Shown here: one piece after another, positions 3,948 through 22,930 of the stretch | How the letters are laid out: every line of letters starts with the position of its first letter | How positions within the stretch are numbered: position 1 is the stretch's first letter | DNA from: a virus | IMG/VR virus record: IMGVR_UViG_3300047462_000712 | Coordinates: 1-23,620 of that record | Length of the DNA stretch: 23,620 nt | Strand: one strand, 5' to 3' | Notes under the pieces: generated by a model | Told to the model about the DNA's origin: nothing | The model's input: only the letters and a program-made list of their open reading frames with translations | The model's database searches: none | Program-made: the position numbers and the translations under genes

Positions 3948-5519
3948 ATGCCCATCGTCCAGCAGGGCGCGATCAACACCACCGCGCTGGTGGTGCCCGA
4001 TCTCTACGTGCAGATCGTCCCGCCGCAGAACCTCGTGCTCAACGGCGTGCCCACAAATGTCATCGGCGTGGTCGGCACTGCCTCTTGGGGGCCGGTCGGT
4101 CAGCCGGTGATCGTCGGCACGATGGCCGGTTATGCCAGCAATTTCGGGCCCGTCATGGCCCGCAAATACGATCTCGGCACGCCGGTCGCCACGGCCGTCC
4201 AGCAAGGGGCGTCGGCCTTCCGCTGCGTGCGCGTCACCGACGGCTCGGATTCCGCCGCGCAGTTTGAACTGCCGAACACCACCTTCCTGTTCACGGCGCT
4301 CTACACCGGCAGCCTGGGGAACAGCATCCGCGTCACGCTGTCGGCGGGCAGCGCCGCCGGAACCTGGCGGCTCACCGTCGTGATGCCCGGCCTGCCGCCC
4401 GAAATGTTCGACAACATCGCCGGCGCTGGCGCCGCGTTCTGGACCGCGCTCGCGGCGGCGGTGAACAACGGCATCACCAACCAGCGCGGCCCCAGCCAGT
4501 TGGTCGTCGCCTCCGCCGCCGGCACCTCGGTCGCGCCTTTCGCGTTCAGCTACACGATGACCGGCGGGGTCCAGGGCACCGACGGCGCATCCGGCGTCAC
4601 CGCCGCGACGCTGGTGGGCCAGGATGTCCCGCCCCGCCACGGCATGTACGCGCTGCGCGGCCAGGGCTGCTCCATCGGCGTGCTGTCGGATGCCGACGAT
4701 GCCTCCACCTGGGTCGTGCAGGCGGGCTTCGGCCTGTCCGAGGGGCTCTACATGATCATCCCCGGACCGGCGGGCGACACGATCGTCGATGCCGTGGGCG
4801 CCAAACAATCCACCGGGCTGGACAGCTACGCCGCCAAGCTGATGTTCGGCGACTGGCTCTACTGGAACGACCAGGTCAACGGCATCCTTCGTCTCGTCTC
4901 CCCGCAGGGCTTCGTGGCCGGACGGCTCGGCAATCTCTCGCCGGAGCAGTCGAGCCTGAACAAGCCGCTCTACGGGGTCGTCGGCAGCCAGAAATCCGGC
5001 CAGCCGGGCACAGGTCAGGCGAATTCCTATTCCTCGGCCGAGCTCGCCGCGCTGCTCCAGGCCGGCATCGACGTTATCACCAACCCACAGCCCGCCGGCA
5101 GCTTCTGGGGCGTGCGCGGCGGCCACAACTCCAGCTCCAACGCCGCCACCAATGGCGATAACTACACGCGGATGACGAACTACATTGCCGCCACCCTCGC
5201 CTCCGGCATGGGCCAGTATGTCGGCCAGGTCATCACCGCACAGCTGTTCCAGCGAATCCGCGCCACCCAGCTCGCCTTCCTGCAGAACATGCTCACCCAG
5301 GGCCTGCTCGGCAGCACGGACGGCTCGGTGCCCTTCAGCGTCATCTGCGACGTCTCGAACAACCCGCCAAGCCGCACCGGGCTGGGCTACGTGCAATCCG
5401 ACGCGCAAATCCAGTACCAGGCGATCAACGAGAAGTTCATCGTCAACATCGAGGGCGGCCAGACCGTGCAGGTCCAGGTCCAAACCCTGCCGACCAGCAC
5501 GCCCGCACTCACCGCGTAA
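3948..5519 (+). CDS. Contractile tail sheath protein
   Basis: This 523-aa protein forms the outer contractile sheath around the tail tube and powers contraction during DNA delivery. The N-terminus (VVPDLYVQIVPPQNLVLNGV) and the following NVIGVVGTASWGPVGQPVIV are the beta-hairpin handshake region seen in Mu gpL-type sheaths. The centre carries insertion domains (about 90-300). The conserved C-terminal half includes FWGVRGGHNSSSNAATNGDN around residue 386, then YTRMTNYIAATLASGMGQYV. The last strands (FIVNIEGGQTVQVQVQTL) form the C-arm that links neighbouring subunits. Length is usual for the family (400-550 aa). A strong GGGAGG site lies upstream, and the tube gene follows 21 bases later, as in other myoviruses. 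Confidence 0.93.
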   Translation: MPIVQQGAINTTALVVPDLYVQIVPPQNLVLNGVPTNVIGVVGTASWGPVGQPVIVGTMAGYASNFGPVMARKYDLGTPVATAVQQGASAFRCVRVTDGSDSAAQFELPNTTFLFTALYTGSLGNSIRVTLSAGSAAGTWRLTVVMPGLPPEMFDNIAGAGAAFWTALAAAVNNGITNQRGPSQLVVASAAGTSVAPFAFSYTMTGGVQGTDGASGVTAATLVGQDVPPRHGMYALRGQGCSIGVLSDADDASTWVVQAGFGLSEGLYMIIPGPAGDTIVDAVGAKQSTGLDSYAAKLMFGDWLYWNDQVNGILRLVSPQGFVAGRLGNLSPEQSSLNKPLYGVVGSQKSGQPGTGQANSYSSAELAALLQAGIDVITNPQPAGSFWGVRGGHNSSSNAATNGDNYTRMTNYIAATLASGMGQYVGQVITAQLFQRIRATQLAFLQNMLTQGLLGSTDGSVPFSVICDVSNNPPSRTGLGYVQSDAQIQYQAINEKFIVNIEGGQTVQVQVQTLPTSTPALTA

Positions 5520-5540: not shown

Positions 5541-5969
5541 ATGCCCAGCAACACATTCTCGGTCGGCCGCGACTGCCAGCTTGTCGTCATGGGTCCGTTC
5601 GGCCGTGTCGATCTCACCCATGTCACCGGGTTCGACAGCCGCCAGGTCACCTCCGCCATCCGCATCGACCGCATCGACGGCGTGCTGCTCGCCGCGGAAT
5701 TGCCGAAAGGCTGGGAGGGCACGTTCGAACTCGAACGCGGCTCCTCCACCGCCGATGATTTCGTCGCGCGGCTGGAGGCCAGCTACCTCTCGGGGGCCCC
5801 GATCACGCCCGGCACACTCTATCAATACGTGCAGGAGACGGATGGCTCGACGTCCACCTACCAGTACAACTCGGTGGTGTTCAAATTCGCCCAGGCCGGC
5901 AGCTGGCGCGGCGACCAGAGCGTGAAGCAGCGCCTGGAATTCTTCGCCGCCACCCGCACCCGCGTCTGA
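5541..5969 (+). CDS. Tail tube protein
   Basis: This 142-aa protein directly follows the sheath and is the hexameric subunit of the inner tube. It is beta-rich: CQLVVMGPFGRVDLTHVTGF, then RIDGVLLAAELPKGWEGTFE, a helix (TADDFVARLEASYL), and two long strands (YQYVQETDGSTSTYQYNSVVF). GWEGTFELERGSS and the final KQRLEFFAATRTR resemble Mu-M/P2-FII-like tube subunits. The length is within the 115-180 aa usual for this class. It sits between the sheath and the tail assembly chaperone, matching the canonical order. A GAGG lies upstream of the ATG. Confidence 0.85.
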   Translation: MPSNTFSVGRDCQLVVMGPFGRVDLTHVTGFDSRQVTSAIRIDRIDGVLLAAELPKGWEGTFELERGSSTADDFVARLEASYLSGAPITPGTLYQYVQETDGSTSTYQYNSVVFKFAQAGSWRGDQSVKQRLEFFAATRTRV

Positions 5970-5977
5970 ACCCCGCG

Positions 5978-6331
5978 ATGCAATCGCAGGACACACCCTC
6001 CGCCCGCCTCATCGCCGCCGCCCAGGCCGCCCCGGAGGTGACTGATGCGCAAGGCCGCCGCCTCGCGCTGAAGCGGCTCACGGCGCTGGACAAGCTGCGC
6101 CTGTTCAAGGCGGCCGGACCGGGCCTCTCGCAAAACCAGCCCTGGCTTGGCATGGCGGTTCTGGCAGCCTCGGTCGCCGCCATCGACGATATCCCGGTGC
6201 CGCCGCCGGGCACCGAGGCGCAGATCGAGGCGCTGGTCGCCCGCCTCGGCGATCCCGGCCTCGCGGCCATCGCCACCGGGCTCGACAGTGCCGCGCCGCC
6301 CGTCGATCTCGCGGCCCACGCGGGAAACTGA
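5978..6331 (+). CDS. Tail assembly chaperone, short form (G)
   Basis: This 117-aa product is the zero-frame form of the tail assembly chaperone, a non-structural protein that assists folding of the tape measure and tube polymerisation. It is mostly helical: SARLIAAAQAAPEVTDAQGR, then a conserved-looking stretch with LKRLTALDKLRLFKAAGPG, then helices through residue 117. It follows the tube gene by eight bases, the position of Mu gp41, P2 E and lambda G. The reading frame ends at TGA 6329-6331. The heptamer GGGAAAC at 6322-6328 sits in the correct phase immediately before this stop, so a fraction of ribosomes can slip into a second frame (see the fusion entry). Confidence 0.82.
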   Translation: MQSQDTPSARLIAAAQAAPEVTDAQGRRLALKRLTALDKLRLFKAAGPGLSQNQPWLGMAVLAASVAAIDDIPVPPPGTEAQIEALVARLGDPGLAAIATGLDSAAPPVDLAAHAGN

Positions 6332-6501
6332 GCCGGCACCCCGATCTGGTCGATTGCCTGTTCCTGGTGCGGAACGGGGTGCCCTTCGACGTCGCTTTCA
6401 GCCTGCCCCCGGAAGACCGCCTCGCCTGGGTGGTCGCACTCGGCACGCTCGATGGCAACGAGTTCGACTTCGCGCGGATGCGCTGGAAGGATCGCGGATG
6501 A
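5978..6501 (+). CDS. Tail assembly chaperone, frameshift fusion (GT)
   Basis: A -1 slip at GGGAAAC (6322-6328) would extend the 117-aa G product by 57 residues to 174 aa, ending at TGA 6499-6501. The extension reads from L, S, R, H at 6328 through DLVDCLFLVRNGVPFDVAF and ends EFDFARMRWKDRG. That acidic-aromatic ending followed by basic residues is typical of phage T extensions. This second frame has no start codon of its own near its beginning and no room for an RBS, so it can only be made as a fusion. The next gene's ATG (6498) overlaps its stop by ATGA, showing that the frame is genuinely used. I infer G and GT are both made, as in lambda and P2. Confidence 0.85.
6322..6383 (+). promoter_or_regulatory. 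Programmed -1 frameshift signal (slippery heptamer plus stem-loop)
   Basis: The heptamer GGGAAAC at 6322-6328 has the X-XXY-YYZ form in the zero frame (G GGA AAC), so both tRNAs can re-pair as GGG and AAA. A six-base spacer (6329-6334) follows. Then come GGCACCCCG (6335-6343) and CGGGGTGCC (6375-6383), a perfect 9-bp stem with a 31-nt loop. Spacers of about 5-8 nt to a stem or pseudoknot are usual for -1 sites. The heptamer, its phase, the stop and the stem were read directly. Whether the loop forms a pseudoknot is not decided. Confidence 0.88.
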
Positions 6502-6860
6502 AACTCGCCGATCTCGCCACCGGCCTCGCCCGCCTCGACCTCGACGCGGTCGCGGCGACGGCGCTGGCGGCCCAGGCGAACACCATCGGCGAGGCGGTGC
6601 GCGAGGCGCTCTCCCACCCGCCCGGCCTGGAACATGTCTATCCCTGGAAGCAATCCGGCGCCCTGCAGGCCAGCATCGGCGTCGCCGCCGAAGGGAGCGA
6701 GGCGGTGATCGGCTCGACCGATCCGGTCGCGTTCTGGCAGGAACACGGCACCTCGCGCATCCCACCGCGCCCTTTCCTCGCCCCGGTCGCCGCCGCACAG
6801 GCCGAGGCGACAGCCGCCGCCATCGGCGGGGCGGTGGCTGCCGCAATCGGAGGCGTGTGA
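6498..6860 (+). CDS. HK97-gp10-like tail/neck protein
   Basis: This 120-aa protein starts at an ATG overlapping the frameshifted chaperone stop. The frame is open further upstream, but that part is another frame of the chaperone and is not coding-like. A helical N-terminus (residues 1-32) is followed by WKQSGALQASIG, then a strand around EAVIGSTDPVAFWQE, and finally HGTSRIPPRPFL near residue 90. The 'GTSRxPPRPFL' element is the hallmark I associate with HK97-gp10/virion morphogenesis proteins. Those usually sit in the neck cluster, whereas this one lies between the chaperone and the tape-measure-position gene. Its stop overlaps the next ATG (TGATG). The family call is by motif, the tail-completion role is inference. 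Confidence 0.62.
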   Translation: MKLADLATGLARLDLDAVAATALAAQANTIGEAVREALSHPPGLEHVYPWKQSGALQASIGVAAEGSEAVIGSTDPVAFWQEHGTSRIPPRPFLAPVAAAQAEATAAAIGGAVAAAIGGV

Positions 6861-7885
6861 TGGACGAGGCCTACCTGATCGGCATCCGCCTCGCGCTGGA
6901 CAACGGCGTCAGCGCCGGCATCGCCACCATCTCGCGCGAACTCGCCGCCCTCGACGCCGCCATCGCCACCACCACGGCGCATCTGCAACGGCTGGAACAG
7001 GTGGCCGCATCCGTCGCCCAGGGCCCGGCGTCGTCGCTGCCTTCCCTCGATCTCCCGGCACAGACACCCGCAGCGCCGGAGCCCCCGCCTTCCGCCGCGT
7101 CCGCCCAGCCCACGCGAGCCACCCCATCCGCTCCCCAACCGCAAGCCACGTCTCCCCTCCCCTTGCGGGAGGGGTCGGGGGAGGGGGGCAGCCGCACGAT
7201 ACCCTCCCCTGCTTCACAGCCCCAGCAGACCGCTTCGTCCCCCCAAAAACCACAGACTCCACCAACCACTTCTCCCCCCCCCTTGCGGGAGGGGCCGGCG
7301 GAGGGGGGAAGCCGCACCATCACTGCCCCGGCCCCGCCGTCGCCCCTTGCCGCGCCCGCCCTCCAGAAGCCCCAGACTCCGACAGCGCCTTCCCCACTCC
7401 CCTCGCGGGGGAGGCCGAGGGAGGAAACCAACCGCTCGATCCTTCCACCCATGGCGAGCGAGCCGGCCGCTTCCCCGCGCCATGCGTCTCCGTCCGTCGC
7501 GGCCCTGGTTAGCCCGCCACCGCCATCCGCTCAGCCGCAACGTCCGCCAGTCCCGCCGCCCCTCCCCTCGCGCCCGGAGCCAGCGGGAGAACGCGCGCTC
7601 CCGCTCCCAACCCCACGCGCCCCGCCGCCACCGCCGCGTCCCCAAGCGCCGGCGCAGGCAGCCCCCATCGCGCTGGCGCCCACGACCACGCCCACCTCTG
7701 CCGCCCCCACCCGCCGCGAGCCCGAACCCGCCGGACCCACGCACGGCGATGTGTTCCTCGACGGCAGCCGGGTCGGCACCTGGCTGTCCGAGCACCTGGC
7801 CCGCGCCGCCGCCCGTCCCCAGGCCGGGGCGACCGGTGTCGATCCCACGCTGACCCCGGCGTGGCCTGGAACCCTGCAACAGTGA
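6860..7885 (+). CDS. Proline-rich protein in the tape-measure position
   Basis: This 341-aa protein occupies the slot between the chaperone and baseplate genes where the tape measure normally lies. Three parts are visible. Residues 1-55 are helical (IGIRLALDNGVSAGIATISR, then a hydrophobic heptad-like stretch), similar to the start of some alphaproteobacterial tape-measure-like proteins. Residues about 60-290 are Pro/Ala/Ser-rich with no predicted helix. Residues 98-217 carry three 40-residue units encoded by 120-bp DNA repeats. Residues 296-341 (GDVFLDGSRVGTWLSEHLAR) look like a conserved C-terminal domain. It lacks the 600-plus residues and hydrophobic segments usual for tape measures. The start ATG overlaps the upstream stop. 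It could be a divergent tape measure or a smaller tail protein. Confidence 0.6.
   Translation: MDEAYLIGIRLALDNGVSAGIATISRELAALDAAIATTTAHLQRLEQVAASVAQGPASSLPSLDLPAQTPAAPEPPPSAASAQPTRATPSAPQPQATSPLPLREGSGEGGSRTIPSPASQPQQTASSPQKPQTPPTTSPPPLREGPAEGGSRTITAPAPPSPLAAPALQKPQTPTAPSPLPSRGRPREETNRSILPPMASEPAASPRHASPSVAALVSPPPPSAQPQRPPVPPPLPSRPEPAGERALPLPTPRAPPPPPRPQAPAQAAPIALAPTTTPTSAAPTRREPEPAGPTHGDVFLDGSRVGTWLSEHLARAAARPQAGATGVDPTLTPAWPGTLQQ
7151..7440 (+). repeat. Three palindromic G-rich units at 120-bp spacing
   Basis: Units begin at 7151, 7271 and 7391, an exact 120-bp step. The first 50 bases of units 1 and 2 match at 45 positions by direct count. Each contains a hairpin: unit 1 CCCCTCCC (7154-7161) with GGGAGGGG (7167-7174), loop of five; unit 2 has the same arms with one mismatch; unit 3 CTCCCC (7397-7402) with GGGGAG (7408-7413). 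Unit 3 is more diverged. The step is a multiple of three, so the coding frame is kept. The form (pyrimidine arm, TTGC/TCGCG-like loop, purine arm, then a GGGGGAGGG tail) resembles palindromic elements that I recall as dispersed in alphaproteobacterial genomes. Dispersal cannot be tested here. Confidence 0.8.
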
Positions 7886-22000: not shown

Positions 22001-22930
22001 ATGAACGCCAATCTCCTACACGTCGTCGCCGCCATCGCCAACCCGGTGCGATGGGAAAGCCGCATCCGTCTCGCGCGCCAGTTCGCCTCCCACATGCTCG
22101 ACAGCGGCGTGTCGCTCACTCTTGTCGAATGTGCCTACGGCGACCGTTCGTTCGATCTCGCCGACATCCCCCACGTCAACCATGTCGGCGTGCGCGCCCG
22201 GACGCTCGTTTGGAACAAGGAGGCTCTCCTGAACATCGGTGTGGCGCGAGGGTCGCCGCAGGCGCGCCATATCGCCTTCATCGATGCCGACATCCGCTTC
22301 CGCAAACCGGCCTGGGCCGCCGAGACCGTTCATGCCCTACAACAATATGACGTCGTTCAGCCCTGGAGCGATTGCTACGATCTTGGTCCAAACGACGAAC
22401 ATCTGCATAGCCATCGCTCCTTCTGCCGATTATGGGCTGACGGCAAGCCCATCGTGCAGGGGCCGAACGCGACTGGCGGCTACCAGTTCGGCCACCCTGG
22501 CTACGCCTGGGCCTTCACGCGCCAGTCGCTCGACTGGGTGGGCGGACTCGTCGACTCCGCCGCGCTGGGGGCGGCCGATCACCACATGGCGCTTGCGCTG
22601 GTCGGCCGCGTGACCGACAGCATTCCAGGCAACATGTCGCCCGGCTACCGCGCGCCACTGCTGCGCTGGCAGGACCGTGCCATGCGCCACATCGCCGGGA
22701 ATATCTCCTATGTTCCTGGCACGATCGAGCATTACTGGCATGGCGCCAAGGAGCGCCGCAAATACGTCGATCGCTGGTCGGTGCTGTCGGACAACGACTT
22801 CGACCCCCAGACCGACCTCAAGCGCAACAGCTTTGGCGTTATCGAACTCACCGGCAACAAGCCGAAACTACGACGCGAGATCGACGCCTATTTCCGCAGC
22901 CGCGACGAAGATTCCAACACCCTTTCCTAA
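22001..22930 (+). CDS. Phage-encoded glycosyltransferase (GT-A type)
   Basis: This 309-aa protein is a probable sugar transferase and stands out between lysis genes. LLHVVAAIANPVRWESRI starts the nucleotide-binding fold. VWNKEALLNIGVARG (residues 70-84) and HIAFIDADIRF (90-100) carry the D95-A-D97 metal/sugar-nucleotide motif and match the galactosyltransferase-like GT-A fold. YAWAFTRQSLDWVGGLVDSA and AADHHMA (191-197) occupy the acceptor-side region where a catalytic Asp is expected, and EHYWHGAKERRKY (243-255) is a His-rich element of this type. No membrane segment is seen, so it should work in the cytoplasm. Targets could be host surface sugars (superinfection exclusion), virion proteins or DNA; the sequence does not decide. 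Confidence 0.75.
   Translation: MNANLLHVVAAIANPVRWESRIRLARQFASHMLDSGVSLTLVECAYGDRSFDLADIPHVNHVGVRARTLVWNKEALLNIGVARGSPQARHIAFIDADIRFRKPAWAAETVHALQQYDVVQPWSDCYDLGPNDEHLHSHRSFCRLWADGKPIVQGPNATGGYQFGHPGYAWAFTRQSLDWVGGLVDSAALGAADHHMALALVGRVTDSIPGNMSPGYRAPLLRWQDRAMRHIAGNISYVPGTIEHYWHGAKERRKYVDRWSVLSDNDFDPQTDLKRNSFGVIELTGNKPKLRREIDAYFRSRDEDSNTLS

Follow-up and report, generated by a model that had tools for sequence, protein, structure and literature searches.

Comparative evidence for programmed -1 frameshifting in a probable tail assembly chaperone gene pair of contractile-tailed phages related to Acetobacteraceae prophages

The window, by which we mean the whole stretch of DNA analysed here (23,620 bases), is a fragment virus record of the IMG/VR type and carries the head and contractile-tail module of a myovirus, including genes for a major head protein, sheath, baseplate hub, spike, wedge and endolysin. 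The phage is contractile-tailed and is related to prophages of Acetobacteraceae. The gene order along the module is sheath, presumed tube, G, T, neck and baseplate, and the features from the sheath to the neck-type gene lie on the + strand. The tail sheath gene (3948-5519; phrog_23, E 1e-43) is followed by a presumed tail tube gene (5541-5969) immediately upstream of G, which is so named for its position after the sheath and matches a family of unknown function (phrog_12993, E 1e-38). G, the first frame of the putative chaperone pair, encodes 117 amino acids (5978-6331). T is an extension in the -1 frame (6328-6501) of 57 codons followed by TGA at 6499-6501, and translates to LSRHPDLVDCLFLVRNGVPFDVAFSLPPEDRLAWVVALGTLDGNEFDFARMRWKDRG. 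Its stop overlaps the ATG at 6498-6500, in the form ATGA, which begins the next gene, of the tail completion or neck type (6498-6860; phrog_5, E 9.4e-10).

A profile search of the ORFs in the window identified no tape measure. The presumed tape measure position is taken by an ORF (6860-7885) of only 341 residues without any family match, compared with a CDS of about 740 aa that follows the gene corresponding to the neck-type gene in Komagataeibacter phage phiKX1 (LC644975). Within this ORF, at 7139-7572, lie copies of a GC-rich element of the CCCCTCCCCTTGCGGGAGGGG type, spaced about 120 bases apart, which translate as repeated proline-rich text. The element looks like a repeat embedded in coding sequence, at a position that might have been expected to hold a tape measure. 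A 309-aa ORF following the endolysin (22001-22930) has no PHROG match and resembles a glycosyltransferase by eye.

The G frame terminates in GCG GGA AAC TGA, with the heptamer GGGAAAC at 6322-6328 and the 0-frame stop codon directly abutting it at 6329-6331. The sequence-only reading had placed G_GGA_AAC in phase before this TGA, with a perfect 9-bp stem 6 nt downstream and an open 57-codon -1 frame whose stop overlaps the next start; on recheck of the sequence the phase, the stem, the frame and every coordinate were correct. GGGAAAC occurs once on the + strand of the window, which holds 14 XXXYYYZ heptamers of any kind and in any phase in 23.6 kb, and an in-phase heptamer touching a stop codon is rare. 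A single sequence could owe this arrangement to chance, and it is the comparison of relatives that settles the heptamer and the frame as real.

Relatives were drawn from viral contigs, bacterial genomes, and phage and plasmid records, giving 250 distinct loci. In one bacterial family 162 of 397 sampled genomes contained a profile match, and when the viral contigs were scanned again with a T alignment of greater diversity, most of those found had already been collected. The sequence-only reading had named a lack of conservation of the heptamer or the downstream frame as one part of the grounds for abandoning its proposal. Both are conserved: a heptamer in X_XXY_YYZ phase lies at the exact joint in 245 of the 250 loci, and T is in the -1 frame relative to G in 247 of the 249 where the G profile finds an upstream frame. 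Close relatives in which the joint is present keep heptamer and frame without exception (13/13). Five loci have no heptamer at the joint. One keeps T at -1 (L143), one has C_CCT_TTG fifteen bases earlier (L242), and in two G ends upstream of T (L381 and L394); these four possibly use other slip sites or have other layouts. The fifth, a contig of Candidatus Burkholderia pumila (L158), has a shifted A run. Relatives outside the Acetobacteraceae (L155, L156 and L344) come from Paraburkholderia, where AAAAAAC is present and the 9-bp stem is missing from its usual position, and from the planctomycete Limnoglobus roseus, whose genome has two copies.

T evolves as a protein under purifying selection, with a median pairwise dN/dS of about 0.23, a rough ratio given that the median dS is near 0.95. 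This bears on the idea that a sequencing error or a pseudogene has split one ORF, in favour of which there is nothing beyond the frame break itself. Purifying selection on T argues against a pseudogene, and the recurrence of the break refutes this explanation: 245 distinct loci, drawn from viral contigs, isolates and MAGs, have it at one and the same base, which leaves the idea a probability close to nil.

The heptamer is GGGAAAC in 164 of the 245 loci and AAAAAAC in 77, with one locus each for AAAAAAT, AAAAAAA, AAAAAAG and GGGAAAT. GGGAAAC and AAAAAAC have interchanged, with at least seven changes required by a FastTree tree built from the G and T sequences minus the heptamer residues, and the switch alters the protein from Gly to Lys. 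No mixed heptamers such as GGAAAAC were seen; loci were counted only with a canonical heptamer, so that mixed forms would fall among the five exceptions, and none was found there either. The first base of the heptamer is the third position of a codon, and among unique T sequences it is G before GGA in 155 of 155 and A before AAA in 74 of 74, against third bases of G357/C315/A88/T50 for the Ala codons among the 15 codons upstream of the joint. Such linkage between a wobble base and the following codon is not produced by amino-acid constraint, and selection for slipperiness can be seen in the heptamer itself. The stop codon directly follows the heptamer in most relatives. It comes 18 nt later in 16 of the GGGAAAC loci, where the heptamer is nonetheless present, and conservation of the heptamer is therefore not a by-product of the stop. 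The typical second codon of E. coli-type slip sites is AAG; with AAC in its place, the efficiency of frameshifting may therefore be low. As for a Shine-Dalgarno-like stimulator upstream, a purine motif is found in 80 of 229 sequences, with no clear conservation.

The motif LSRHPDL, among the most conserved parts of T, starts right at the joint. In phiKX1 a small CDS of its own is annotated over the T region, starting inside the conserved domain, as would fit T being a separate gene that is translated from its own start or by re-initiation and makes no fusion. We regard this as very unlikely: of the 89 loci whose -1 leader is short, 84 lack any ATG, GTG or TTG before T codon 7, though LSRHPDL is highly conserved, and a separate gene leaves the heptamer and its wobble linkage unexplained. 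The N-terminus of T is conserved and lacks a start codon of its own, and T would therefore be reached through G. Gene callers had been expected to miss such an extension, and in four plasmid relatives from RefSeq the T region is indeed blank: 165-196 bases lie unannotated behind a G that is labelled hypothetical. Profile searches of T in Pfam, PHROGs and NCBIfam gave no match. An AlphaFold2 model of T (pLDDT 92) has no credible match in a second look at the PDB; its one structural match, A0A6J5SEC2 (prob 1.00, E 0.12), is a short viral protein that is uncharacterised.

The 5' arm of the stem (6335-6343, GGCACCCCG) begins 6 nt past the heptamer, and the 3' arm (6375-6383, CGGGGTGCC) is exactly reverse-complementary to it. 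The folding energy of the stem in the window is unremarkable, with a z of -0.64 and 46 of 200 shuffles of this GC-rich DNA folding as stably. Single-sequence energy was therefore rejected as evidence, and the significance of the stem comes from the comparison of relatives. A search of Rfam gave no match. Across the relatives 217 of 224 unique contexts keep 8 or 9 of the 9 pairs, and the variants are mostly wobble pairs. Compensatory changes are seen from C-G to A-U in three sequences of the Aquitalea type (GGAACCCCG or AGAACCCCG with CGGGGTTCC), from C-G to G-C in Paraburkholderia sp. SOS3 (GGGAC.../...GTCCC; one sequence) and from C-G to U-A in one sequence. These double changes are few, and the covariation is thus supporting rather than overwhelming. 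The stronger evidence is a sharp boundary in codon choice at the stem edge. Within the stem codon choice is frozen (Gly17 is GGG in 224/229, Val18 GTG in 224/228 and Pro5 CCC in 181/216), and the third base of Pro19, one base outside it, is free (CCG109 CCC61 CCA32 CCT26). Pairing, compensatory changes and codon choice frozen only within the stem all show that the downstream structure is under selection, and protein coding does not explain the linked changes in heptamer and stem. The heptamer, its phase, the -1 frame and the stem, together with their selection across relatives, are shown by the analysis.

The same features bear on whether the fusion could arise by slippage of RNA polymerase, that is by transcriptional frameshifting. 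About a third of the relatives have AAAAAAC, a run of six A, on which this might occur. The GGGAAAC found in two thirds, including the window, has no run longer than three, and the X_XXY_YYZ phase and downstream RNA stem are signatures of ribosomal rather than polymerase slippage, which makes a transcriptional origin extremely unlikely.

The chaperone identity given to G in the sequence-only reading draws on gene order and on weak profile and fold matches. The best PHROG match of G is to a family of unknown function (phrog_20383, E 2.3e-20), followed by a weak match to a tail assembly chaperone family (phrog_508, E 0.017), and there is no match above the curated cut-off to the tail chaperone families of Pfam or NCBIfam. 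The AlphaFold2 model of G (pLDDT 90) matches several structures in BFVD that are named tail assembly chaperone, at weak E values of 0.014-0.024. Foldseek found nothing credible in the PDB, and a search of the G alignment against the sequences of solved structures gave chance-level matches only. On a second look the best PDB match was YqbN (3KLU; rmsd 6.4 over 87 residues), with a Z of 4.6 that is within the range of chance similarity. YqbN has been called a tail assembly chaperone (PMC9603447). The modelled fold of G thus weakly resembles known tail chaperones. A real frameshift could also serve proteins that are not tail chaperones, e.g. another assembly factor of the tail module, as the best PHROG of G and the absence of a family match for T would allow. 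The position after sheath and presumed tube, the G-to-GT anatomy and the weak matches to tail assembly chaperone profiles and folds speak against this, and we judge it improbable. By analogy, G and T are probably a tail assembly chaperone pair of the lambda G/GT type.

The slippery heptamer of lambda is GGGAAAG, and P2 uses a different shift site. Frameshifted tail chaperones are a well-known class that includes lambda, P2 and Mu (PMC5009743), in agreement with the statement in the sequence-only reading that lambda, P2 and Mu-like tail chaperones frameshift. G of lambda binds the tape measure, and T brings in the tube protein; the G:GT ratio is about 30:1 (PMC5009743). The anatomy shared with lambda gpG/gpGT is a -1 frameshift near the end of G and a minor fusion product, here predicted from sequence; the lambda chaperone is absent from the virion (PMC5009743). 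No sequence similarity to lambda gpG/gpGT was found, and the heptamer here ends in C, not G. The window also differs from lambda in the stop touching the heptamer, the conserved 9-bp hairpin, the contractile-tail module and the neck-type gene after T. In TP901-1 the heptamer is GGGAAAG, and mutating it leads to capsids without tails (PMC4493119).

P2, with its E/E' pair, and Mu resemble what is predicted for the window phage in having a contractile tail and, in the tail operon, a chaperone made by frameshifting; Mu uses a -2 shift (PMC5009743). A profile search of the window proteins gave no match to the P2 or Mu tail chaperone families. The g-t shift sites of the haloarchaeal viruses HCTV-1 and HCTV-2 are G_GGA_AAC and A_AAA_AAC (PMC5009743), and it is these two heptamers that interchange in the present loci; HCTV-1 and HCTV-2 are archaeal siphoviruses, in contrast to the contractile tail of the window phage, and the likeness rests on the shift-site heptamers. 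phiKX1 has the same arrangement, with A_AAA_AAC TGA, identical stem arms and a G that is 33.6% identical to that of the window (tblastn). Its G/T region is annotated as two hypothetical proteins, and the word frameshift is absent from the main text of the phiKX1 paper (PMC8566455).

Taken together, we consider it very likely that a programmed -1 ribosomal frameshift at G_GGA_AAC makes the chaperone G and a minor G-T fusion. We infer that the ribosome would slip by -1 at the heptamer, and that both the stop codon next to it and the hairpin that begins 6 nt further on would stimulate the slip. Two products would then be made from one start, the short chaperone G by most ribosomes and the G-T fusion as a minor product. 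By analogy with lambda gpG/gpGT, G may coat the tape measure and the T part may recruit tube subunits. A bolder and rather doubtful proposal is that these phages have a distinct class of tail-chaperone frameshift, a termination-coupled slippage whose G:GT ratio would be fixed jointly by an unusually conserved hairpin and by a stop that touches a heptamer ending in AAC. The T domain made in this way would belong to a new family, spread over one planctomycete genome and prophages of both alpha- and betaproteobacteria.

The mechanism is known, being of the classic lambda type, and what is new is the unannotated family; searches of the literature in open-licence papers found no description of this G/T family. 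The family is recognisable as a sub-type by a second codon that is nearly always AAC, by the stop adjacent to the heptamer and by the fixed hairpin. With two interchangeable heptamers, one hairpin and hundreds of sequences, it offers an unusually clean natural data set for -1 frameshifting in GC-rich bacteria. In practical terms the annotation of many prophages can be corrected, and a widespread unannotated T domain can be given its reading frame, its mechanism and a probable function.
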